Assembly (NCBI GenBank): GCA_017399035.1
Contig: JAFQEM010000016.1
Coordinates: 1 to 43,000, forward strand
Direction: 5' to 3'
From: Clostridia bacterium
GTDB taxonomy: Bacteria; Bacillota; Clostridia; Christensenellales; Borkfalkiaceae
DNA: 43,000 nt
Shown here: one piece after another, positions 1 to 43,000 of the stretch
How the letters are laid out: each line of letters starts with the position of its first letter
How positions within the stretch are numbered: position 1 is the stretch's first letter
The notes under the pieces: model-generated
What the model saw: only the letters and a program-made list of their open reading frames with translations
Databases searched by the model: none
Told to the model about the DNA's origin: nothing
Translations under genes and position numbers: made by a program

Positions 1-2
1 AA

Positions 3-212
3 GATGCTGAAATGAGTATTGAAGATAAAATTTGTAGCAAAGTTACATATATTTCAGTTAAAAATATAAATGATACCATTGAACTTAGTGTAGGTGGTAA
101 AGGATTAAATTGGAAGCAATTTATGCTAACTTCAGCATATTCTAAGTTGTGTAATTGCTTTGAATGGGCATGTAAAAAACAAGGTTATCAATTTAAAATT
201 AGAAAAATTTAA
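3..212 (+). CDS. C-terminal end of an unrecognised protein (partial)
   Basis: The frame is open from the window edge, so this may be the tail of a longer gene. An ATG at position 12 would give a 66-residue protein, but no convincing ribosome binding site can be seen so near the edge. The visible peptide is basic at its end (QFKIRKI) and has three cysteines in its second half (LCNCFEWACKK). I do not recognise the family and assign no function. The gene is closed off by an intrinsic terminator at 232-265, so it is not in the same transcript as the dnaG-like gene that follows. It lies on the far side of the suspicious dnaG/L5 junction and may not belong beside the ribosomal cluster. Confidence 0.45.
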   Translation, partial: DAEMSIEDKICSKVTYISVKNINDTIELSVGGKGLNWKQFMLTSAYSKLCNCFEWACKKQGYQFKIRKI

Positions 213-231
213 TTTTGGTTTTATTAAAAAT

Positions 232-265
232 AAAATCTGCAAATCACATTTGCGGATTTTTTTTT
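232..265 (+). terminator. Intrinsic terminator after the first partial gene
   Basis: A 12-bp stem (233-244 with 248-259, one G-T wobble, loop CAC) runs into a tract of nine T at 257-265. It ends transcription of the gene ending at 212. Confidence 0.8.
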
Positions 266-288
266 GACAAGTTTATTAGTTTTAGGTA

Positions 289-317
289 TTGCTAATAACA
301 GAAAAATATGGTATAAT
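289..317 (+). promoter_or_regulatory. Promoter of the dnaG-like gene
   Basis: TTGCTA (289-294) and TATAAT (312-317) are 17 bases apart, with a TG one base ahead of the -10 box (extended -10). This predicts a start near 324 and a 5' leader of about 105 bases before the ATG at 431. A dedicated promoter here is unlike the middle of a normal spc operon, where rplE is read through from rplX. Confidence 0.6.
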
Positions 318-430
318 ATATTAAATTATGTAAATTACAAAATTTTTAAATTATTTTTAAAAATCTTAGGAATTATACATTATTTTGTGGTATTAAGTAA
401 TTATAACACAATTTTGTTTAAAAGGTGCAA

Positions 431-1384
431 ATGATAAGTAAAGGATTTAGTCAGGCTTTTTTGGACGAGTTGATAACTAAAAACGATATAGTGTCCGTCA
501 TCTCTAAATATGTTACTTTGACAAGAAGAGGAGCTAATTTCTGGGCGTGTTGCCCTTTTCATATGGAAAAAACTCCTTCAATGTCGGTAAAAGAGGACGG
601 TCAGTTTTTTAAATGCTTTGGTTGCGGTGGTGGCGGTAATGTTATTAACTTTGTTAAGCAAATTGAAAATGTTGACTTTTATAAGGCAGTAGAGATTTTG
701 GCTGAAAATGCAGGTATGCAACTTCCAACTTATGAAGATAATGAGGAAATGCAGAAAAAAAAGCATCAACGAGATACAATCCTGTCAATACTAAAGGCTA
801 CAAGCGATTTTTATATATCAAATTTAAATAAAGTTGAAGCGAATAAGCATATTGATTATATTCGTAGTCGTGGCATAACTGATGCAATGGTTAAAAAGTT
901 TAATTACAATAACGTAAATCAAGTTCCCAAACTCGTAAAAATTACAATCAACTCTGGTTTGGGCGCAATTAAAGACAACTCTAAAAGCGTTCAACTCGCT
1001 CAAAAAGAACTTGAACTTATTTCTGGTCAAAAGCCCGTGTTGACACTTGCAAAGAAGTCAGTTGCAAACTTCAAAGTGAGAGAAGGTCAAGGCGTAGGTA
1101 TGAAAGTTACTCTTCGTGGAACTAGAATGTATGAATTTTTTGATAAATTCATTTCAATCGCACTTCCTAGAGTTAGAGACTTCCGCGGTGTATCTAAGAA
1201 GTCATTTGACGGCAGAGGAAACTATTCAATGGGTGTAAAAGAACAATTGATATTCCCTGAAATTTCTTACGACCAAGTAGAAACTGTAAGAGGATTTGAT
1301 ATCTGTATCACCACGACGGCTAATACCGACGAAGAAGCAAGAGAATTGCTTACGTTACTCGGAATGCCCTTTGCAAATAAGTAA
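431..1384 (+). CDS. Chimera: DNA primase N-terminus fused in frame to ribosomal protein L5
   Basis: The reading frame is uninterrupted but joins two unrelated proteins. Residues 1 to about 155 are the start of DnaG primase: a CHC2 zinc finger with C41, H44, C62 and C65 (CPFH and CFGCG), then the beginning of the primase core with its YIRSRGIT stretch. The TOPRIM catalytic domain is missing. From about residue 156 ([16 protein letters not shown]) to the end it is ribosomal protein L5, with the family's [22 protein letters not shown] and TTANTDEEA blocks. About 18-20 N-terminal L5 residues are absent. ATG 431 is preferred over GTG 425 because AAAGG at 421-425 sits five bases ahead. rpsN follows 18 bases downstream, as after a normal rplE, but rplX and rplN are not upstream. 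A metagenome misjoin or a real recombination are both possible; as written, it is unlikely to be a working primase. Confidence 0.85.
890..913 (+). other. dnaG/rplE junction
   Basis: Within these bases the primase-like peptide ([11 protein letters not shown]) becomes L5 ([12 protein letters not shown]). Both families can encode a short K-F-N-like stretch here: Bacillus L5 has TKFNYDSVMQVPK, and DnaG has a helix ending in a similar lysine/phenylalanine run. A short shared sequence is therefore enough to explain the join. Two Asn-Val pairs before the junction use AAT-GTT (near 638 and 667), while the first Asn-Val pair after it uses AAC-GTA, the usual choice in the rest of the window. Confidence 0.7.
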
Positions 1385-1402: not shown

Positions 1403-1588
1403 ATGGCTAAAAAAGCAATGATTAATAAGCAGCAAAAGCCTGCTAAATTTTCCACCAGAGCCTACACCAGATGCAGCATCTGCGGTCGTCCGCACGCTGT
1501 ACTCCGTAAATACGGTATTTGCCGTATCTGCTTTAGAGAATTGGCTTATAAAGGTCAAATTCCTGGCGTAAAGAAGGCTAGTTGGTAA
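1403..1588 (+). CDS. rpsN: 30S ribosomal protein S14, zinc-binding type
   Basis: This is the 61-residue short (type Z) S14, a protein of the 30S head that contacts 16S rRNA. Two CxxC pairs (CSIC at about 24-27 and CRIC at about 39-42) form the zinc ribbon that separates this form from the longer zinc-free paralogue. Length and C-terminus (GVKKASW) fit the family exactly. AAGGAG lies seven bases before the ATG. It sits between rplE and rpsH as in nearly all Firmicutes, which shows that the sequence from L5 onward is a genuine spc operon. Confidence 0.97.
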
Positions 1589-1603
1589 AGGAGGATAAGA
1601 AAA

Positions 1604-1990
1604 ATGACAGACGTTATTGCGGATATGCTTACCAGAATCAGAAACGCTCTGATGGCTAAGCACGAAACTGTTGAAATTCCCGCTTCAAACACTAAAAAAG
1701 CGATTGCAGATATTCTTTTGAAAGAAGGTTATATCTCAAACGTAGAAATTATTGAAGGCGTACAGGGAACTATTAAAATTACCCTTAAATATGAAGGTAA
1801 TCAAAAGGTTATTACTGGACTTAAGAGAGTAAGCAAACCTGGTTTGAGAGTTTACGTAGGTACTGATGAAGTTCCTCAAGTTCTCGGTGGACTCGGAATT
1901 GCAATTCTTTCTACGTCAAAAGGTATTATGACCGGTAAAGAAGCAAAGAAAGCCCATCAGGGCGGCGAAGTTCTCGCTTACGTATGGTAG
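1604..1990 (+). CDS. rpsH: 30S ribosomal protein S8
   Basis: S8 binds helix 21 of 16S rRNA and is an early assembly protein of the 30S platform. In enterobacteria it also represses its own operon by binding the mRNA near rplE. The protein has 128 residues and starts [15 protein letters not shown]. The C-terminal rRNA-binding block [17 protein letters not shown] and the ending VLAYVW are canonical. A strong GGAGG precedes the ATG. The gaps to rpsN (15 bases) and rplF (13 bases) indicate one transcript. If S8 autoregulation exists here, its target at the rplE start would be lost through the dnaG/L5 join. Confidence 0.97.
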
Positions 1991-2003
1991 GAGGTATTAA
2001 GTT

Positions 2004-2549
2004 ATGTCAAGAATAGGAAATGCTATCATCAATATCCCTGCAGGCGTAACCGTTGAAGCAAAAGACAACGTTATAACTGTTAAAGGACCTAAAGGAACTT
2101 TAACCCAAAGTTACGACCCGATTATCACTCTTAACATTGAAGGTGCAACCGTTAGACTCACTAGAGCAAACGATTTAGGACCTACCAAAGCAAAGCACGG
2201 TCTTTATAGAGCGCTTTGTGCAAATATGATTAAAGGTGTTACGGAAGGTTTCAAAAAGAGCCTTATCGTAAACGGCGTAGGTTGGAAGGTTGCAAAGCAA
2301 GGTAAAAAAGTTGTTATGAATATCGGTTTCAGCCACCCTGTTGAAATCGAAGAAATTGAGGGAATTACTCTTGATTGCCCCGCACAAAACGAAATTACCG
2401 TTAATGGTATTGACAAAGAAAAAGTTGGTCAATTTGCTGCTATGGTAAGAGGCTATAGAGAACCCGAACCTTATCACGGATACGGAATTCGTTATAGTGA
2501 CGAAGTTATCGAACGTAAAGTTGGTAAAGCAGCCGGCGGTAAAGGTTAA
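2004..2549 (+). CDS. rplF: 50S ribosomal protein L6
   Basis: L6 lies at the base of the L7/L12 stalk near the GTPase centre and sarcin-ricin loop. The 181-residue protein begins MSRIGNAIINIPAGV and contains the two L6 repeats. The second ends in the signature block EPYHGYGIRYSDEVIERKVGKAAGG, close to the usual PYKGKGIRY form. AGGAGG is positioned before the ATG. Unlike its neighbours, it is followed by a 104-base gap with two hairpins before rplR. Confidence 0.97.
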   Translation: MSRIGNAIINIPAGVTVEAKDNVITVKGPKGTLTQSYDPIITLNIEGATVRLTRANDLGPTKAKHGLYRALCANMIKGVTEGFKKSLIVNGVGWKVAKQGKKVVMNIGFSHPVEIEEIEGITLDCPAQNEITVNGIDKEKVGQFAAMVRGYREPEPYHGYGIRYSDEVIERKVGKAAGGKG

Positions 2550-2571
2550 TAAGTTTAAAGGGCTTTTAGTG

Positions 2572-2630
2572 GACGCGCTTGAAGTTTTAGCGCGTCTGCC
2601 GAGTGCGCTTTTCGGAATAAGCGCGAAAAG
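2572..2630 (+). promoter_or_regulatory. Double hairpin between rplF and rplR
   Basis: The first stem is 8 perfect base pairs (2572-2579 with 2589-2596, GACGCGCT/AGCGCGTC, 9-base loop). A second follows at once, either CTTTTCG/CGAAAAG (2608-2614 with 2624-2630) or the competing GCGCTT/AAGCGC (2605-2610 with 2619-2624). There is no T tract, so this is not a terminator. The GC-rich stems stand out from the AT-rich surroundings. It could be an mRNA processing site or a ribosomal-protein binding site controlling rplR and the downstream genes; the function is inferred from position only. Confidence 0.5.
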
Positions 2631-2653
2631 TTATTAAATTAGGAGTTAAAACT

Positions 2654-3022
2654 ATGATTAGCAAAATCAATAAAAACAAGGATAGACTTAAAAGACATAA
2701 GAGAGTCAGAGCAAAAATCAAAGGTACTGCGGAAACTCCCAGACTTTCAGTATATAGAAGTTTGACTCATATTTATGCTCAACTTATAGACGACGTTAAA
2801 GGAAATACCTTGGTTACGGCGTCTACGCTCGATAAAGAACTCAAAGGTGCTTTTGACGGCAAAGACAAGAAAGCGCAAGCGTTCGCAGTTGGCGAACTTC
2901 TTGCAAAGAAGGCAAAGTCGAAAAAGATTAGCGCAGTTGTTTTTGACAGAGGCGGTTATCTTTACACCGGTCGTGTTGCAAGTTTAGCAGACGGCGCAAG
3001 AAAGGGCGGCTTGGAATTCTAA
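2654..3022 (+). CDS. rplR: 50S ribosomal protein L18
   Basis: L18 binds 5S rRNA with L5 and L25 and helps to anchor it in the central protuberance. The 122-residue protein has the basic start ([14 protein letters not shown]), the [19 protein letters not shown] strand and the C-terminal [28 protein letters not shown], all typical of L18. AGGAG lies before the ATG after the two-hairpin spacer. It is 22 bases from rpsE, so the two are co-transcribed. Confidence 0.97.
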
Positions 3023-3044
3023 TATAATCAAGGAGAAAACGAAA

Positions 3045-3566
3045 ATGGCAAGAGATAATAACAGAGCGCCTAGAAGGGCGGAAGAAAACGACGGCTTGGT
3101 TAAAAAGCTTATCTGTGTAAATCGTGTTACCAAAACCGTTAAAGGCGGTAGAAATATGAGATTTGCCGCTCTCGTAGTCGTAGGTGACGGCGCAGGCAAA
3201 GTAGGTTGCGCAATGGGTAAGGCTAAAGAAGTTCCCGAAGCAATCGATAAGGCAACGCTTAGAGCAAAAAAGAATATGTTCCCCGTAGCAATGTGCGGTA
3301 CCAGTATTCCTCACGAAGTTTTGGGTGAATTCGGTAGCGGTAAAGTTCTTATGATGCCCGCTGACGAAGGTACCGGTGTTATTGCAGGCGGTCCTGTTCG
3401 TGCGGTAATGGAAGCAGTTGGTATCACCAACATTAGAACCAAGTCTCACGGAACTAACAATAAAATTAACTGTGTAAAAGCAGCACTTGCAGGCTTAAAG
3501 AGCCTCAGAACTGCAGAACAAATTGCAGCTATTCGCGGTAAGACCGTCGAAGAAGTAAACGGTTAA
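3045..3566 (+). CDS. rpsE: 30S ribosomal protein S5
   Basis: S5 helps form the mRNA entry channel and affects translational fidelity. The 173-residue protein shows the dsRBD-like N-terminal domain ([34 protein letters not shown]) and the C-terminal domain with [30 protein letters not shown]. The glycine-rich loop VKGGRNM is where spectinomycin-resistance changes are known in other bacteria; it looks unaltered by eye. AAGGAG precedes the ATG. It lies in the normal order between rplR and rpmD. Confidence 0.97.
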
Positions 3567-3579
3567 GGAGGGTACTTTT

Positions 3580-3783
3580 ATGGCAAAGGCAAAAACAGCA
3601 GAAACTGCAAAAATAAAAGTTACGCTTGTAAAAAGCACGATAGCGATATTGCCGCAACACAAAAAAATAGTAGCGGCTTTAGGACTTAAAAAAGTTCGTT
3701 CTTTCCGTATTCACGAAGAAAATCCTTGCATTCTTGGTATGATTGCAAAGGTTAAATACCTCGTGAAAGTAGAAAAGATTTAA
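3580..3783 (+). CDS. rpmD: 50S ribosomal protein L30
   Basis: This small 50S protein has 67 residues. The family core is clear: KVTLVKSTIAILPQHKKIVAALGLKKVRSFRIHEENPCILGMIAKVKYLVKVEKI, where most L30 proteins read LGL(R/K)K followed by D-N-P-x-I-x-G-M. A short extra N-terminus (MAKAKTAETAK) makes it slightly longer than the usual 58-60. An AGGAGG-type site precedes the ATG. Confidence 0.95.
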   Translation: MAKAKTAETAKIKVTLVKSTIAILPQHKKIVAALGLKKVRSFRIHEENPCILGMIAKVKYLVKVEKI

Positions 3784-3812
3784 GTTAATTACTAAATTTA
3801 AGGAGTAATAAA

Positions 3813-4259
3813 ATGAGATTAGGTGAATTAAGTCCCGCTATGGGCGCTACGACCACCAAGAAGAGACTCGGAAGAGGTATCGGTTCAGGTCTTGGCAAAA
3901 CCAGTGGTAAAGGACATAAAGGACAATGGGCAAGAAGCGGTGGCGGTGTTCGTCCAGGATTTGAAGGTGGTCAAATGCCTTTAATCAGAAGAATTCCGAA
4001 ACGCGGATTCAATAACCATTTTAGAAAAGTATACAGTATCGTAAACCTTTCTGTTTTAGAAGGTTTAGAAGCAAACTCCGTAGTGGATATGCAAATGCTT
4101 AACGAAAAAGGACTTATCAAAGTCATTAAAGGAAGCGTAGGATTAAAAGTTTTGGGCAACGGAACTCTTACTAAAGCGTTGACTGTTAAAGCAGCAAGTT
4201 TCTCTGCATCAGCAAAAGACGCTATTGAAAAAGCCGGTGGCCAAGTAGAACAAATCTAA
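3813..4259 (+). CDS. rplO: 50S ribosomal protein L15
   Basis: L15 is a late-assembling 50S protein with a long, glycine-rich extension threaded through 23S rRNA. The 148-residue sequence has the characteristic start [22 protein letters not shown], then [16 protein letters not shown], the [15 protein letters not shown] block and IPKRGFNN. The C-terminal globular part ends in [17 protein letters not shown] precedes the ATG. It is followed 23 bases later by secY, the usual order. Confidence 0.97.
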
Positions 4260-4282
4260 CCCACTAATATAGGGAGGGCAAA

Positions 4283-5575
4283 ATGTTTCAAACGATAGTA
4301 AATGCGCTCAAAATTAAAGAAGTTAGAAATAAAATCCTTATAACTATTGCTTTGTTGTTTGTGTACAGATTAGGATGTTATATTCCAGTACCAGGCATCA
4401 ACGGTTTTAGTGGATTGAGTGATTATACTTTCTTACAAATAATGAGTGCAGTATCCGGTGGCGCATTAACCTACGGTACGTTCTTCGCTATGGGTATCGG
4501 ACCGTATATCAACGCGTCAATTATAATTCAACTTTTATCTGTAGGTATTCCTGCACTTGAAAGATTGAGTAAACAAGGTGAAGAAGGTCGTAGAAGAATC
4601 AATACGTATACGAGAATTTTAACGTTAGTTCTTGCTATTGCACAAGCAATAGGTATTCTTGTTGCGTTTGGTGGTTCAAACAGCATAGATTTTAATAAGT
4701 TGTTTGGTGGCGACGGATTCCCAAGATTTATGAGTTACGTATTCTTGGTATTAGTTTATACCACGGGTTCGGCTCTCACAATGTGGATAGGCGAAAGAAT
4801 AACCGATTACGGTGTATCAAACGGTATTTCGCTTCTCATCTTTGCAGGTATTTTGTCTACAACAGGTACGGCAATTATCAGTCTTCTTAAGCAATTAGGT
4901 AGCCCTGATACTGCAATGAGTGCAGCGTGGACGTTGGTTGGCTTTGTTGGTGCAGCAATTATAATTTTTGCAGCAATCGTAGCCGTTAATAGCGCAGAAC
5001 GTAAGATATCCGTTCAGTATGCAAAGCAGGTTAAAGGTAGAAAGATGTATGGTGGTCAATCTACTCATATACCGATCAAAGTTAACGCAACTGGCGTTAT
5101 GCCTTTAATCTTCTCATTTGCAATCTTAAGTTTCCCCGATTTGATTATCAACTTGTTCGGTGTTAAGTCGGATAACTGGTGGTCAACGTACGTTGGAACT
5201 GACAGTTGGTTATATATGGTACTCTTGTGCTTGCTTATATTGTTCTTTTCATATTTCTATAACCAAATTCAATTTAATCCTGACGACATAAGTAAAAGTA
5301 TTCAAGGCAACGGTGGTTTTATCCCCGGCATTAGACCTGGTAAACCCACTGCCGATTACTTGAAGAAAGTATCTAACAGAATAACGTTGTTTGGTGCAAT
5401 CTTCCTCGCAATCGTTGCTCTTATACCTTCGTTAGTGTTTAAGGCTATTGATATCGGTTTAGTAAATGCGTTCAGTGCAACTGGTCTTTTAATTATAGTT
5501 TCAGTAGCGCTTGAATTTGAACAAGCATTGCAATCACAAATAATGATGAAGAACTATAAAGGTTTCTTAAAGTAA
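4283..5575 (+). CDS. secY: Preprotein translocase subunit SecY
   Basis: SecY is the protein-conducting channel of the cytoplasmic membrane, working with SecE/SecG and the SecA motor, which is encoded at 27503. The 430-residue length fits. Ten hydrophobic segments can be followed from ILITIALLFVYRLGCYIPVPGI to the last one ending in VSVALEFEQALQSQIMM. The plug and first-helix region has the family's R-x-G-x-x-I-P-x-P-G. QGEEGRRRINTYTR and AERKISVQYAKQ, cytosolic loops that contact SecA and the ribosome, are present. An AGGGAGG site precedes the ATG. Confidence 0.97.
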   Translation: MFQTIVNALKIKEVRNKILITIALLFVYRLGCYIPVPGINGFSGLSDYTFLQIMSAVSGGALTYGTFFAMGIGPYINASIIIQLLSVGIPALERLSKQGEEGRRRINTYTRILTLVLAIAQAIGILVAFGGSNSIDFNKLFGGDGFPRFMSYVFLVLVYTTGSALTMWIGERITDYGVSNGISLLIFAGILSTTGTAIISLLKQLGSPDTAMSAAWTLVGFVGAAIIIFAAIVAVNSAERKISVQYAKQVKGRKMYGGQSTHIPIKVNATGVMPLIFSFAILSFPDLIINLFGVKSDNWWSTYVGTDSWLYMVLLCLLILFFSYFYNQIQFNPDDISKSIQGNGGFIPGIRPGKPTADYLKKVSNRITLFGAIFLAIVALIPSLVFKAIDIGLVNAFSATGLLIIVSVALEFEQALQSQIMMKNYKGFLK

Positions 5576-13839: not shown

Positions 13840-13868
13840 AGAAAATTCTCCTTGATAAGATATTAAAA

Positions 13869-13897
13869 ATTATATATTCAACTAAATAAAAAGTCAA
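13869..13897 (-). promoter_or_regulatory. Promoter of the ygjV-like gene
   Basis: Read on the minus strand: TTGACT (13897-13892), 17 bases, TATAAT (13874-13869). The predicted start is about 25 bases before the ATG. Confidence 0.75.
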
Positions 13898-13948
13898 GTT
13901 TTTTAATGTTGAATTAGCCTTGAAAACTATAATTCGCTTTACTGCTAT

Positions 13949-13972
13949 ATAAAACACAAGATAAAACACAAG
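13949..13972. repeat. Tandem 12-base duplication
   Basis: ATAAAACACAAG occurs twice with no gap (13949-13960, 13961-13972) in the AT-rich spacer between the divergent ygjV promoter and the ncRNA promoter. No function is apparent. Confidence 0.6.
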
Positions 13973-14020
13973 TTTGCATATAAAAGATAAGTATATTTTT
14001 TAAAAATAAACAAAATATGC

Positions 14021-14049
14021 TTGACATAAAATTCAAAATACTATAATAT
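14021..14049 (+). promoter_or_regulatory. Promoter of the 14.05-14.40 kb RNA
   Basis: A perfect TTGACA (14021-14026) is followed by TATAAT (14042-14047, spacer 15) or TAATAT (14044-14049, spacer 17) in a very AT-rich region. Transcription would begin near 14055, about 20 bases before the closing stem of the structured RNA. Confidence 0.7.
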
Positions 14050-14055
14050 ATAAAA

Positions 14056-14404
14056 CGGAATTGAACTTTATAAAAACAGAGTCTTTCCAAGCGATAAAGG
14101 ACCACTCGAAAGAGTTGAGGCCATACGGACAGCCGGGTCCACTGCCGATTGGTGGTTTGCCACCATATTATTGATTGAGTTAAAAGCTCAAATTTTATAA
14201 GTTGGTTACTTTATAACCGAAAATGCGAAAATTCGCAGACTTGTGAAACGGTCAATAAAGAGTAGTAAAAGTTTTGTTGCTATATAGACTCTGATTACCA
14301 AATATTAAATTAAAACTTAACAGGCGTATATTTGCCTGTGTTTGGTTATTTTTAATATTTGTTAGGCTGTTGCAAGTTGTTAAACGACTTGCGTTTTTTA
14401 TTTT
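14056..14404 (+). ncRNA. Large structured RNA upstream of potABCD (class not identified)
   Basis: About 350 bases with a strong promoter and an intrinsic terminator but no ORF. CAGAGTC (14077-14083) pairs with GACTCTG (14287-14293), closing a 217-base domain. Inside are GGACC/GGTCC (14099-14103 with 14136-14140) enclosing a GAAA-capped ACTC/GAGT hairpin (14104-14115) and GGC/GCC (14119-14121 with 14132-14134). Then come TGGTGG/CCACCA (14150-14165), TTGAG/CTCAA (14175-14191), GGTTA/TAACC (14204-14218) and TGCGAA/TTCGCA (14224-14237). A second domain (14299-14361) is closed by 11 bp and precedes the terminator. Conserved cores of tmRNA, RNase P, SRP, 6S, T-box, SAM, TPP and c-di-GMP RNAs are absent. 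Size and compact junctions would fit the clostridial raiA RNA class, but I cannot confirm this. It could also be a riboswitch for the polyamine importer that follows. Confidence 0.65.
14372..14404 (+). terminator. Intrinsic terminator between the structured RNA and potA
   Basis: GCAAGTTGT (14372-14380) pairs with ACGACTTGC (14384-14392), one wobble, then TTTTTTATTTT. It ends 14 bases before the potA ribosome binding site. That is the geometry of either a stand-alone RNA terminator or a leader attenuator. No other potA promoter is apparent downstream of it, so some readthrough is expected. Confidence 0.8.
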
Positions 14405-14428
14405 AAACGCACTAAAAAGAGGTGTTTT

Positions 14429-15961
14429 ATGACTAATGAAAAAATGACTAAAACGTTATCCGACGAAAAGATTATTCAAATTGAAAATCTTACGAGAAGA
14501 TTTGAAGATGGTGTGGTTGCTGTAGACGATATAAGTTTTTACGTGCGAAAAGGCGAATTCGTAACCTTTTTAGGTCCGTCTGGATGCGGAAAAACCACAA
14601 CTCTTCGTATGATAGCGGGCTTTGATAAACCTACTTCGGGTAGAATTTTACTTAATGGTGAAGATATTAGTTATTTGCCACCTAATAAACGACCTATAAA
14701 CACGGTGTTCCAACGCTACGCACTTTTTCCGCATCTCAACGTTTACGATAATATTGCGTTTGGGCTTAAACTAAAAAAAGTTAAAGTAACTTACCGTGAT
14801 AAAGATGGCAACGAGATTGAAAAGGTTGAAAAATTAAAGAAGTGGGAAATAACTGCAAAAGTTCAAAAGGCGTTAAAAATGGTTGACCTTGAAGGTTTTG
14901 AAAAACGCAGTGTATCTACGCTTTCTGGTGGTCAACAACAAAGAGTTGCTATTGCGCGTGCAATAGTCAACGAGCCAAAAATTCTTCTTTTAGACGAACC
15001 TTTGGGCGCTTTGGACCTAAAGATGAGAAAAGATATGCAACTTGAACTTAAAGAGATGCATAAAAAACTTGGCATAACCTTTATATACGTTACGCACGAC
15101 CAAGAAGAGGCTTTGACAATGAGTGATACTATAGTGGTTATGAAAGACGGCGTAATTCAACAAATAGGCACACCTACGGATATATATAACGAACCTAAAA
15201 ATTCTTTCGTTGCAGACTTTATAGGGGAAAGTAATATTTTTAGCGGAACTATAGTTGGAAAGAAAAAGGTTAGATTTATAAATCATAATTTTGACTGTGT
15301 AGACGATTTTGCCGTAAATGAAAAGGTAGACGTTGTAGTTCGCCCAGAAGACATTGTTCTGGTTGATAAGGGGCAAGGGCAAGTTGACGGAAAGATTATT
15401 AGTTCGATATTTAAAGGCGTTCATTATGAAATGGTGATGCTTGTTGGTAAAACGGAAATAGTAATTCAAGATACGGTAGAAAGAAAAGTTGGGGAAGAAG
15501 TGAGCCTTAAAATCCAACCCAACGATATTCACATAATGGAAAAAGAATTTTCGTCTAATAAATACGACGGATATATTACAAAACGCAATACCGTATGTTT
15601 TGGCGACGGAGAGTTTGAGTGTGACGTAACCCAACTTTATCCTAATTCAATTTTAGACGAAGAGGGCTATTTGATTACGGAAGAGGGGGATAGAATAGAC
15701 CTTACTGACGTAGACGTAGAAGTAGAAGTGGGGCTTAAAGACATTGAAATAAGCGACGACGCGGACAAGGGCGGAGCAATAGGAAATATTGTTTCAATGA
15801 TTTATAAAGGCGACCACTATCAACTTATAGTACGCACTGATGAAAATGAAGAAGATTTTGTTTTTGATACAGAAGACACTTGGAACGAAAACGACAGGGT
15901 AAGCGTAATCATTCCTAAAGAAAAGATTAAACTAAAGATAAAACAGGAGATTAAAAGATGA
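14429..15961 (+). CDS. potA: Spermidine/putrescine ABC transporter ATPase PotA, long form
   Basis: This is the ATPase of a polyamine importer. Walker [10 protein letters not shown] is at residues 49-57, the Q-loop is in [12 protein letters not shown], the signature LSGGQQQR at 165-172, Walker B ILLLDEP near 187-193 and the switch histidine in [10 protein letters not shown]. At 510 residues it is about 130 longer than usual. The additional length comes from two successive TOBE-like regulatory segments: one around [29 protein letters not shown], the other around [41 protein letters not shown] precedes the ATG. It is the first gene of potABCD and overlaps potB by four bases. Substrate assignment rests on the operon and on PotD. 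Confidence 0.92.
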
Positions 15962-16797
15962 CGGAAAAGGACTTTATTCAAGAAAAGGCTATGAGAAACA
16001 ATAAGTTTCGACTTTCCTTTTCTAGAAAACAGTTGTGTTTACCTTATGGTGTTTTTCTTGCTCTGTTTGTCGTTTTACCTTTGCTTTTAATTGTGTTCTA
16101 TTCTTTTACTGATAAAGACGGCGGATTTTCGTTTAATAACTTTATAAGGTTTTTTTCTAGCGCAACTACTCTAACCACGGTTATAATAAGCGTGCTTATT
16201 GCGCTTGCAACAACTATAATATGCATACTTTTGGCTTATCCCGTTGCGTATATACTTGCTCGTAGCAATTTAAATCGCGGTGGAACTTTATTGTTACTTT
16301 TTATTATGCCTATGTGGATAAATTTTGTACTTCGCGCAATGGCAATGAAAGATTTGTTAACAATAATAGGCGTGTTTGGATTTAATAATTACGTGAACGT
16401 TATAATAGGTATGGTTTACGACTATTTGCCATTTATGGTTTTACCGTTATATACGGTGCTTTCTAAAATGGACAAAAGTTACGTTGAGGCAAGTAAAGAT
16501 TTAGGCGCAAACGCTTTTCACACTTTTACTAAAGCAACGCTTCCGTTGTCAATGTCAGGGATTGCAAGTGGCGTAACGATGGTATTTATGCCAACTATGA
16601 CTTGTTACGTAATTTCTGATACTTTCGGTAACGGACTTATAACTATAATAGGTAAACTTATTGACGAACAGTTTACAACCTTCCAAAACTGGAATTTAGG
16701 CTCTGCAATGGCTATGGTTTTACTTGTGATTATGCTTGTGTCAATGTGGGTAACTGGTGCGTTCAAAAGTGAAGATACAAGGGGGAATAATCTATAA
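15958..16797 (+). CDS. potB: Polyamine ABC transporter permease PotB
   Basis: A 279-residue permease with six transmembrane segments. The binding-protein-dependent permease signature (EAA loop) reads [28 protein letters not shown], the coupling helix that docks on PotA. The N-terminal cytosolic lead ([21 protein letters not shown]) precedes the first helix [23 protein letters not shown]. It overlaps potA (ATGA) and potC (one base), so the three cytoplasmic and membrane components are translationally coupled. Confidence 0.92.
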
Positions 16798-17597
16798 TGA
16801 AAAAGTTTTTTCAAATATTTTATATCGCCTTGATTTTACTCTTTATCTATGCGCCCATTTTCACTTTGGTGCTTTATAGTTTTGTAGATTCGCCTGTAGT
16901 TAGTATAAGGCAAGCGTTTGAAATAGGTTTTTCATTTGACCTATACGTTAAACTTTTTAACGACGCATCACTTATGAAAATCGTTTGGGATACGCTATTT
17001 TTAGCATTACTCGTAGCAGTTCTTGCAACCCTTTTGGGAACGCTTGGCGCAATAGGTATATTTTATAGCAAAGGTAAATTTGGAAAAGGTGTTTCCGCTG
17101 CGTCTAGAATACCCGTTATAAATGCAGAAATAGTTACGGCTGTTGCTCTAGTTTTGTTATTTGCATTTGTGTTTAAAGAAAGCCGTTCGTATTTTGCAAT
17201 GGTTATAGGTCATTTGGTAATAACAACGCCTTTCGTGGTACTATCTATTATTCCAAAATTAAAACAAATGGATTCTAATCTATACGAAGCCGCTCTTGAC
17301 CTAGGCGCATCACCGTTTGGGGCGTTAGTAAAAGTTGTAATACCTGAAATTTTATCGGGTATTTTGAGCGGATTTATGCTTGCAATAACGCTTTCTTTAG
17401 ACGATTATATTATATCTGCATATACTAAACCTGCAGGTTTTGATACCATATCAACTTACGTTTACGGCGCAATGGCAAAGTCTAACGCAAATTCATCATT
17501 GCCAGCACTTCGCGCTCTTTCGGCTATAATATTCGTCGTTATAATTTTGGTTGTTGTTGGCAAAAATATTTATTCAAGAAGGAGGGAAAGCAAATGA
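16797..17597 (+). CDS. potC: Polyamine ABC transporter permease PotC
   Basis: The second permease of the pair, 266 residues and six membrane segments. Its EAA loop is LYEAALDLGASPFGALVKVVIPEILSGI, and SLDDYIISAYTKPAG matches the PotC family block in which most members have S-x-D-D-F/Y-v-I. It overlaps potB by one base and potD by four. Together PotB and PotC form the membrane channel. Confidence 0.92.
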   Translation: MKKFFQIFYIALILLFIYAPIFTLVLYSFVDSPVVSIRQAFEIGFSFDLYVKLFNDASLMKIVWDTLFLALLVAVLATLLGTLGAIGIFYSKGKFGKGVSAASRIPVINAEIVTAVALVLLFAFVFKESRSYFAMVIGHLVITTPFVVLSIIPKLKQMDSNLYEAALDLGASPFGALVKVVIPEILSGILSGFMLAITLSLDDYIISAYTKPAGFDTISTYVYGAMAKSNANSSLPALRALSAIIFVVIILVVVGKNIYSRRRESK

Positions 17598-19126
17598 TAA
17601 AAAGACTTTTTTCACTTCTTCTGGTTTTAGTTATGTTGTTGCCCACGTTTAGTGCGTTTGGTTGCACAAAGACAAACGGAAATACAAACGTAATTAGGGT
17701 ATGTAATTGTGAAGATTACATAGACGAAGGTTTGCTTTTAGAGTTTGAACAAGAAACTGGAATTACTGTAGAATATTCAACTTACGGTACTAATGAAAAT
17801 TTATATAACGAGTTGGTTATCAATCCAAATAGTTACGATTTAGTTGTACCGTCAGAGTATATGATTGAAAAACTTGCAGAAGAGGGCAGAATACAAAAAC
17901 TCGACTTCACTAAACTTTCAGGATATAAAGCAAACGTTTCGCCATATATTCAAAATAGACTTGATAACCTTAAATTTACCGTTAAAGACGGTGAATACGT
18001 AGGGGAAGAAGTTGCCCTTTCAGAATTTATGGTAGGTTATATGTGGGGAACTATGGGTTGGGTATATAATACCGAATACGTAACTAAAGAAGAAGTTTCT
18101 TCTTGGGGTGGCGTGTTTGAAAATCCTGCCCTTTCAAAAAAGATTACTATAAAAGACGCAGTAAGAGATTCTTTCTTAGTTGGTCTTGCGCTCGTTTACA
18201 AACAAGATTTAATAAATGCAAGCGACAACGCTACAATTACTGAAATATTAAATAGAACTCAACAGATAGACGTTGACAGAGTAGGCGAAAAACTTTCTTC
18301 AATAAAGCCTATGCTTTACGGCTTTGAAGTTGACAGTGGCAAAAACGATATAGTTTTAGGCAATATTAACGCCTACGTTGCGTGGAGTGGCGACGCTGCT
18401 TACGCCATTGACGTTGCCGCAGGTGAAGTAGAAGATGATGACGGCACTTATTTAGAGGGCGATTCTATAAGAGATTTAAGTTATTCAATACCTCAAGAGG
18501 GGTCTAACATTTGGTTTGATGGTTTCGTTATGCCGTCATCAAGTAGAAATTATGACGCCGTTTATAAGTTTTTAGAATTTATTTCTCGCCCTGAAAACGT
18601 TTATAGAAATATGAACTATACGGGATACACCAGTATGGTTGTCGGGGGAGATTTTGCAGAACCTATAATTGATGAAGACGGTAACACGTTTAATAACTTA
18701 TACGACGCAGTTTTTCTCGGTTGGTTTGACGAGTCTGAAGACCTAGAAGTTGGCGAAGGGAAAACGGTTGATTTTTCTTATCTTTTCGGTGTGCCAGCAA
18801 ATACTTATACAGTTACAGTATCTGAAGAGAGTTACGGAAGACTTATTGCTCAATATCCCACTGAAGATATAGTTGCCCGTTGCGCTATTATGAATAATTT
18901 TGACAGTGATACGCTTATGGTTATAAATGATATGTGGGAAAAAGTTAAAGGTGAAACCTTTGACTTATGGCTGATAATTTTAATTGTTGCATTAGTAGTT
19001 TTACTTGCAATAGCAATAGTCGTATTAAGAAATAAAGATAAAATTTTCAAAACAGAATTTATAGCAGTTCAAACAAAACCTCGTAAAAAAGGGTATAAAG
19101 TGGTAAAAATTGAAGAATTATCTTAA
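17594..19126 (+). CDS. potD: Polyamine-binding protein PotD with C-terminal membrane anchor
   Basis: Extracellular substrate-binding protein of the importer. A lipoprotein-like signal peptide (MIKRLFSLLLVLVMLLPTFSAFGC) puts the lipidated cysteine at about residue 24. The periplasmic-binding fold starts with IRVCNCEDYIDEGLLLEFEQETGITVEYSTYGTNENLYNEL, like PotD/PotF, and includes VAWSGDAAYAI and NIWFDGFVMPSSSRNYDAVYKFLEFI. The 510-residue length is well above the usual 340-370. The surplus includes an extra lobe near the end and a clear transmembrane helix (WLIILIVALVVLLAIAIVVL, about 458-478) with a basic cytosolic tail. A lipid anchor plus a C-terminal helix is unusual for PotD. Confidence 0.9.
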   Translation: MIKRLFSLLLVLVMLLPTFSAFGCTKTNGNTNVIRVCNCEDYIDEGLLLEFEQETGITVEYSTYGTNENLYNELVINPNSYDLVVPSEYMIEKLAEEGRIQKLDFTKLSGYKANVSPYIQNRLDNLKFTVKDGEYVGEEVALSEFMVGYMWGTMGWVYNTEYVTKEEVSSWGGVFENPALSKKITIKDAVRDSFLVGLALVYKQDLINASDNATITEILNRTQQIDVDRVGEKLSSIKPMLYGFEVDSGKNDIVLGNINAYVAWSGDAAYAIDVAAGEVEDDDGTYLEGDSIRDLSYSIPQEGSNIWFDGFVMPSSSRNYDAVYKFLEFISRPENVYRNMNYTGYTSMVVGGDFAEPIIDEDGNTFNNLYDAVFLGWFDESEDLEVGEGKTVDFSYLFGVPANTYTVTVSEESYGRLIAQYPTEDIVARCAIMNNFDSDTLMVINDMWEKVKGETFDLWLIILIVALVVLLAIAIVVLRNKDKIFKTEFIAVQTKPRKKGYKVVKIEELS

Positions 19127-42193: not shown

Positions 42194-43000
42194 GTAAATT
42201 TTTTGATCCCTCAACAACTTTCAAGTTTACACCCGCAGACTTTGTTCCTTTCAAAGACAGAGAAATTTGTGAAAAGTTAAGAAAGATTAGCGGAACTGAC
42301 CTTGAAAAACACACAAAAGCAGACCAGCACCCCGAATTCAACATTAAAGTTATGATGAATCCGCACCCCGTGCTTATTGCAACCTTGTTCTCAAGAATTA
42401 AGGAAGCATCGGAAAAAGGTAAGAAAATCACTTTGATTCTCGGTAACCCTGAACCCGATACTTATATTCCTTTGGCTCAACTTATCAACTATTTCAAAGT
42501 TGATTGCCGTAACGTTCACCTCTTTGCAATGGACGAATGGGCAGACCAAGACGGTAATATTGCGCCTGAAACGTATCAAGCAGGTTTTGCTCACTCAATG
42601 CTTAAATATTTGGTATACCAAATTGATGAAAAACTTCGTATGCCTTTAGAAAACGTTCATTATCCCACCACTAAAAATATCAACAGTTATTCAGATATGA
42701 TTACTGATTGTGGTGAAGGTGGCGCAGACATTTGTTCTTCTTCACCTGGTTGGACTGGGCATATGGCATTTATTGACCCCGTTCCTGATTTCTTCCCCGA
42801 AGGTTTTGACCCCGCTGTTGAACCCACCAAGGCTCAAATTGACGAATGGCTTAATATGAAAGCACGTATCGTTGAACTTCACCCATTAACGGTTGCACAA
42901 AACTCACTTCACGGTGTATTTGGTCAATCTGGTTATATGGCAGACGTTCCACCAAAGGCTGCAACAATCGGTCCTGTTGACGTTAAAAACGCAAGGGAAA
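42190..43000 (+). CDS. nagB: Glucosamine-6-phosphate deaminase-like protein (runs off the end)
   Basis: An open frame starts at ATG 42190 and continues without a stop to the window edge (270 residues seen). The sequence MSKFFDPSTTFKFTPADFVPF is followed by a NagB-type fold: ITLILGNPEPDTYIPL, LFAMDEWADQDG (the family's D-E-W), CSSSPGWTGHMAFIDP (in place of G-P-D-G-H-I-A-F-N-E-P) and SLHGVFG. It belongs to a larger, divergent glucosamine-6-phosphate isomerase/deaminase group. It turns glucosamine-6-phosphate into fructose-6-phosphate and ammonia if active as named. It overlaps nagA by four bases. Its codons are richer in C-ending choices than nagA, suggesting high expression. Confidence 0.85.
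   Translation, partial: MSKFFDPSTTFKFTPADFVPFKDREICEKLRKISGTDLEKHTKADQHPEFNIKVMMNPHPVLIATLFSRIKEASEKGKKITLILGNPEPDTYIPLAQLINYFKVDCRNVHLFAMDEWADQDGNIAPETYQAGFAHSMLKYLVYQIDEKLRMPLENVHYPTTKNINSYSDMITDCGEGGADICSSSPGWTGHMAFIDPVPDFFPEGFDPAVEPTKAQIDEWLNMKARIVELHPLTVAQNSLHGVFGQSGYMADVPPKAATIGPVDVKNARE

Follow-up and report, generated by a model that had tools for sequence, protein, structure and literature searches.

Near the start of a contig assigned to a Clostridia bacterium, one uninterrupted frame on the plus strand (positions 431-1384) reads as the zinc finger and first primase-core residues of DnaG and then as ribosomal protein L5, which raises the question of whether such a protein belongs to any organism or whether the frame came about during assembly. 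The window analysed here, by which we mean the whole stretch of 43,000 nucleotides (contig C12), is part of a genome bin of 1,534,702 bases in 31 contigs that is 69.35% complete and 0.12% contaminated, and the join lies less than 900 bases from the first base of the C12 sequence, which is exactly 43,000 bases long. As this length is a round number, base 1 or base 43000 may not be a true contig end. Taken as biology, the frame would be a ribosomal protein with a primase zinc finger, a reading that the evidence does not favour: the frame is almost certainly an inter-species assembly chimera and not a real gene.

Domain content and surroundings of the fused frame

From the ATG at 431 the frame encodes 317 residues up to the stop codon at 1382-1384, or 319 residues from an alternative GTG at 425. 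Pfam searches placed PF01807 (Zn_ribbon_DnaG) at residues 7-100 (E = 3.4e-36, 123.4 bits), identifying the CHC2 zinc finger, and then PF00281 (Ribosomal_L5) at residues 161-217 (E = 5.2e-22) and PF00673 (Ribosomal_L5_C) at residues 222-314 (E = 1.4e-40), both L5 domains scoring above their curated cut-offs. DNAG_N (PF08275) left a sub-threshold stub at residues 127-159 (E = 0.034, 14.7 bits versus a cut-off of 26), no TOPRIM family was matched in the frame at E <= 1, and the catalytic core of DnaG is absent. Among the NCBIfam models, the frame passes the L5 equivalog NF000585 (264.8 versus a cut-off of 186) and fails dnaG (TIGR01391, 171 versus 283.6). Compared with DnaG primases (TIGR01391, PF01807/PF08275), residues 1-157 are thus an ordinary DnaG N-terminus, but the frame lacks the catalytic core, TOPRIM and C-terminal parts and stays under the family cut-off; compared with ribosomal protein L5 (NF000585, PF00281/PF00673), it retains both domains over the cut-off, but about 15 native N-terminal residues, as measured against the L5 of genome G003 (whose start codon was read by eye), are swapped for foreign dnaG sequence. 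The original prediction had described a single frame holding a CHC2 zinc finger, the start of the primase core and then L5, with TOPRIM and the L5 N-terminus missing, and the profile searches bear this description out. A literature search found no paper on a primase-L5 gene fusion.

Table 1. Parts of the contig start, by position in the window.
Feature	Coordinates	Strand	Basis
Foreign-side flank: 3' end of ORF 3-212 and first part of the intergenic stretch	1-300	+	ORF open at its 5' end
Leader 5' of the foreign dnaG	301-430	+	blastn alignments running on into dnaG
5' part of dnaG (zinc finger, first core residues) of a Clostridia bacterium of another lineage	431-883	+	Protein and DNA identity, PF01807
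Join zone fitting both genes, encoding AMVKKFN together with base 904	884-903	+	In-register identity
rplE (L5) of the window's own species, minus its first codons	904-1384	+	DNA identity, PF00281, PF00673, NF000585
Ribosomal run after rplE, native side	1403-5575	+	ORFs in order

On the native side, the first gene after rplE is rpsN (NCBIfam NF005974), followed, as read by eye, by rpsH, rplF, rplR, rpsE, rpmD, rplO and secY, and the DNA is collinear with loci of the same genus as far as base 2400, where the query ended. At the other end, the short ORF gave no Pfam match over 12-209 at E <= 1 and no NCBIfam match over 3-209, and the bases before 301 have no DNA match to any of the seven loci that were retrieved with the 5' part of the frame (L065-L071, see below); the first 300 bases are provisionally given to the foreign organism because they are contiguous with the leader that follows them.

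Sources of the two halves and position of the switch

A search of the genome contigs with residues 1-157 returned seven loci (L065-L071), with 30 stretches matching a pattern, and the top three were dnaG genes at 84% (L065), 78% (L066) and 79% (L067) protein identity. All three belong to Clostridia MAGs, namely E14__bin63 and two recovered from the rectum of roe deer (RGIG4606 and RGIG4706), and against these genomes (G436-G438) the 5' part was 77-82% identical, the 84/78/79% values having been obtained with a shorter query. Full-length dnaG genes of the window's own genus are only 43-52% identical to the same part. For L5 the order of relatives is the opposite, as the three MAGs each have a separate L5 that is 61-63% identical to the query, and the L5 proteins of the genus reach up to 90%. 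Because 61-63% is the level seen in the other families of the order (62-71%), the three MAGs probably lie outside the genus. Each half of the frame therefore fits its own lineage and not that of the other half. Bases 1-903 have no close DNA relative within the genus, where matches occurred in 15 of 44 genomes (own genome included) and none off the own contig exceeded 68 bits, nor within the order, where 27 of 396 genomes (own genome included) gave matches at E <= 1e-8 and the best of the others reached 133 bits (70% over 309 bases). No dnaG closer than 84% identity turned up, nor did the exact foreign species.

Similarity to the foreign loci extends upstream of the dnaG start, to base 301 in L067, 339 in L065 and 385 in L066 (blastn), and since it takes in up to 130 bases of leader, what the window holds is the start of a dnaG locus and not a captured domain. 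The dnaG frames of L066 and L067 run for 593 and 594 residues from their ATG and are followed by a short frame and then by an rpoD-like sigma factor (by eye); the L065 sequence stops within dnaG. The gene before dnaG varies among the three, being, again by eye, trypsin-like in L065 (426-1958), leucine-rich-repeat-like in L066 (2-1048) and short-chain-dehydrogenase-like in L067 (3015-3776). Base composition also sets the contig start apart, with a GC fraction of 0.22 for 1-430 versus 0.36 for 884-43000. Bases 1-883 as a whole have a GC fraction of 0.284, below the minimum of 0.294 (mean 0.362, standard deviation 0.029) found in 883-base windows taken every 200 bases from 1401 on and covering most of the remaining contig.

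Where one source gives way to the other could be followed base by base in ungapped register. Over 431-870, identity to the dnaG genes of L065-L067 is 60-88% per 40-base bin, and it is 62% over 871-883; across 431-883 the rplE loci of the same genus stand at 8-50%, mostly 20-38%, the level of chance. From 904 to 1381 the roles are exchanged, with seven same-genus rplE loci (those whose blastn alignment begins at 884, L016 being left out) at 70-100% per bin and the foreign dnaG genes at a chance level of 10-42%. Only the 20 bases in between fit relatives of both sources: 884-903 share 16, 14 and 17 of 20 bases (80, 70 and 85%) with the dnaG genes of the three foreign loci and are 85-100% identical to the seven rplE loci (20/20 in G003), against a background mean of 5.6-6.3 of 20 across all 20-mers of the same loci. 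The window and the G003 rplE both encode AMVKKFN here, and the three foreign dnaG genes encode EMVKKIK, EMLTKFK and EMVEKFK. The change of source falls within 884-903, or about residues 152-157, which narrows the original placement of the L5 body from about residue 156 and gives the predicted KFN-like stretch common to both families an extent of about 20 bases.

Native genes in the bin and the search for the join in relatives

Two DnaG zinc fingers are present in the bin. Apart from that of the fused frame, an intact dnaG of 591 residues is carried by contig C24, with rpoD, as read by eye, coming next; this dnaG is the sole DNAG_N match in the genome and is 47% identical to the 5' part of the frame. 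Opposite the join, this gene and, with small changes, most of 13 aligned dnaG genes of the genus have TKFGIGAS in place of the window's VKKFNYNN, and searching these 13 genes for the motif of the shared stretch gave no match. Since the native dnaG reads TKFGIGAS, it does not offer the shared stretch. This bears on a misassembly within a single genome, in which dnaG and rplE of the same species would have been joined: the short common stretch at the join is what such an error would leave, but the species' own dnaG is intact, is a different sequence and has no such stretch, and the nearest relatives of the 5' part sit in other MAGs. We rejected this reading, which has next to no chance of being correct.

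Neither rplX nor rplN precedes the frame, as had been pointed out, and neither of these families (PF17136 and PF00238), nor rpsC (PF00189), was found in the 69.35% of the genome that the bin represents. Two loci of the genus (L005 and L010) have, by eye, rpsQ-, rplN- and rplX-like genes ahead of rplE. Looking for intact copies elsewhere, as the original prediction had proposed, thus recovered dnaG beside rpoD but no intact rplE, no second PF00281 domain and no orphan rplN-rplX or rplX-rplE end within the bin. Because the bin is incomplete, the upstream rplX-rplE piece may be unbinned, and the failure to find rplN, rplX and rpsC is consistent with an upstream contig that escaped binning.

Searches with the 317-residue frame covered the own genome plus 60 relatives, with matches in 60 of 61 genomes, and the own genome plus 43 genomes of the genus, with matches in 43 of 44; in both searches no single row spanned both halves in an open frame except in the own genome. 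A search for the L5 family found it in 31 of the 43 other genus genomes, with full-length frames of 182-208 residues versus 320 in the window, and in none of the 31 was L5 joined in frame to dnaG. No L5 was found in the other 12, one of which (G010) is 96% complete, so that 31 genus genomes inform on the join. The join is likewise absent from the 47 of 60 relatives that have an L5 row, 25 of which overlap with the genus count. The L5 rows of the genus begin at query residues 102-149, apart from two short frames whose rows begin at 174 and 184. In the four rows extending furthest left with stops marked (G023, G005, G006 and G007), TAA codons come ahead of the L5 frame, and none of the remaining rows begins before residue 133, the point at which the native L5 N-terminus aligns. 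The dnaG rows of the genus extend from the query start as far as residues 158-176, and the frames that contain them measure 549-640 residues, with G019 (320) as the exception. Outside the genus, long open L5 frames occur in G053 (418 residues), G043 (345) and G041 (315), in which the match begins at 143-146 and includes no dnaG match. Assembly or binning of the ribosomal operon seems to work poorly in this genus: besides the genomes in which L5 was not found, the L5 matches of G017 are split over C87 and C103.

These searches bear on a genuine fusion, in which a recent recombination would have placed the 5' end and leader of a foreign dnaG in frame on rplE, yielding either a truncated L5 or an L5 that carries a zinc-finger extension and is expressed from a primase leader. 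In its favour are the open, in-register frame and the retention of both L5 domains, and with an intact dnaG elsewhere the genome could tolerate another, partial copy. Yet the join is absent from all 31 of the 43 other genus genomes in which L5 was found, its occurrence in related genomes being what would have spoken against an assembly error; a real insertion would interrupt the ribosomal operon upstream of rplE, but the genes that normally precede it are not found elsewhere in the bin; and the site lies close to the first base of the MAG contig, in sequence common to both genes. With the native dnaG intact, we rejected a real fusion as extremely improbable. There is no fusion protein here and no displaced primase, and the truncated L5 that the original prediction had coupled to a displaced dnaG, should the join be real, is likewise without support.

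A second dnaG acquired horizontally beside the ribosomal operon and later truncated by a deletion into rplE would explain why the bin has two DnaG zinc fingers, and some genus genomes do carry extra DnaG-like frames, but these matches are weak and the 5' part with its leader matches dnaG loci that have an rpoD-like sigma factor downstream in other MAGs (L066 and L067, after one short frame, by eye), and we rejected this reading too, giving it almost no credence. The extra DnaG-like matches, in G023, G017, G030 and G028, are 28-48% identical with E-values of 1e-16 or poorer, and their frames of 674 and 655 residues in G023 (C44 and C8) and 650 residues in G017 (C146) perhaps belong to mobile elements.

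A probable join between two species

That a short-homology assembly error is the simplest reading, as first proposed, is supported by these results, with the refinement that the join would be between two species and not within one genome. The first ~900 bases of the contig almost certainly belong to a gut Clostridia species other than that of the remainder, and the metagenome assembler would have walked from the dnaG of one species into the rplE of the other over a bridge of ~20 bases encoding AMVKKFN, which is the same or nearly so in both genes and in the same frame, producing an open frame that is probably present in no cell. We infer that the join arose in assembly rather than in an organism, the assembler having been misled by the shared stretch. 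Counting against this account are the failure to recover the orphan rplX-rplE end that it predicts, the missing match to the foreign species itself, and the 12 of 43 other genus genomes that gave no L5. The in-frame reading follows because the bridging codons are common to both genes, and selection is not needed to account for it.

Chimeric contigs of this general kind are on record. One benchmark with Illumina reads reports, per genome, 22.15 chimeric contigs with MEGAHIT against 2.63 with SPAdes (PMC11261854). The window resembles the inter-species chimeric contigs of metagenome assemblies, as far as the accessible text of two papers describes them (PMC11261854, PMC7881036), in that different genomes meet in one contig and the best relative changes abruptly within one gene; unlike them, the present join falls in frame, in similar codons of unrelated genes, and hence reads as a fusion protein. 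A two-species chimera may thus fall in frame in codons common to unrelated genes and be annotated as a fusion protein, which calls for caution.

Elsewhere in the window, Rfam family RF02440 (SpF59_sRNA, 'Streptococcus sRNA SpF59 (ldcC RNA)') was matched at 14099-14148 on the plus strand with 67.1 bits versus a gathering score of 37.2. In a literature search on riboswitch, potABCD and spermidine, no such RNA was named among the matches listed, in the portions of text that these gave. The match lies in a 589-base gap (13840-14428) before a run of four transporter genes (14429-19126) that comprises an ABC protein with TOBE_2, two permeases and a solute-binding protein and is probably potABCD-like, and, to judge from this position, the RNA may be the leader of a polyamine-type uptake operon in a Clostridia MAG.
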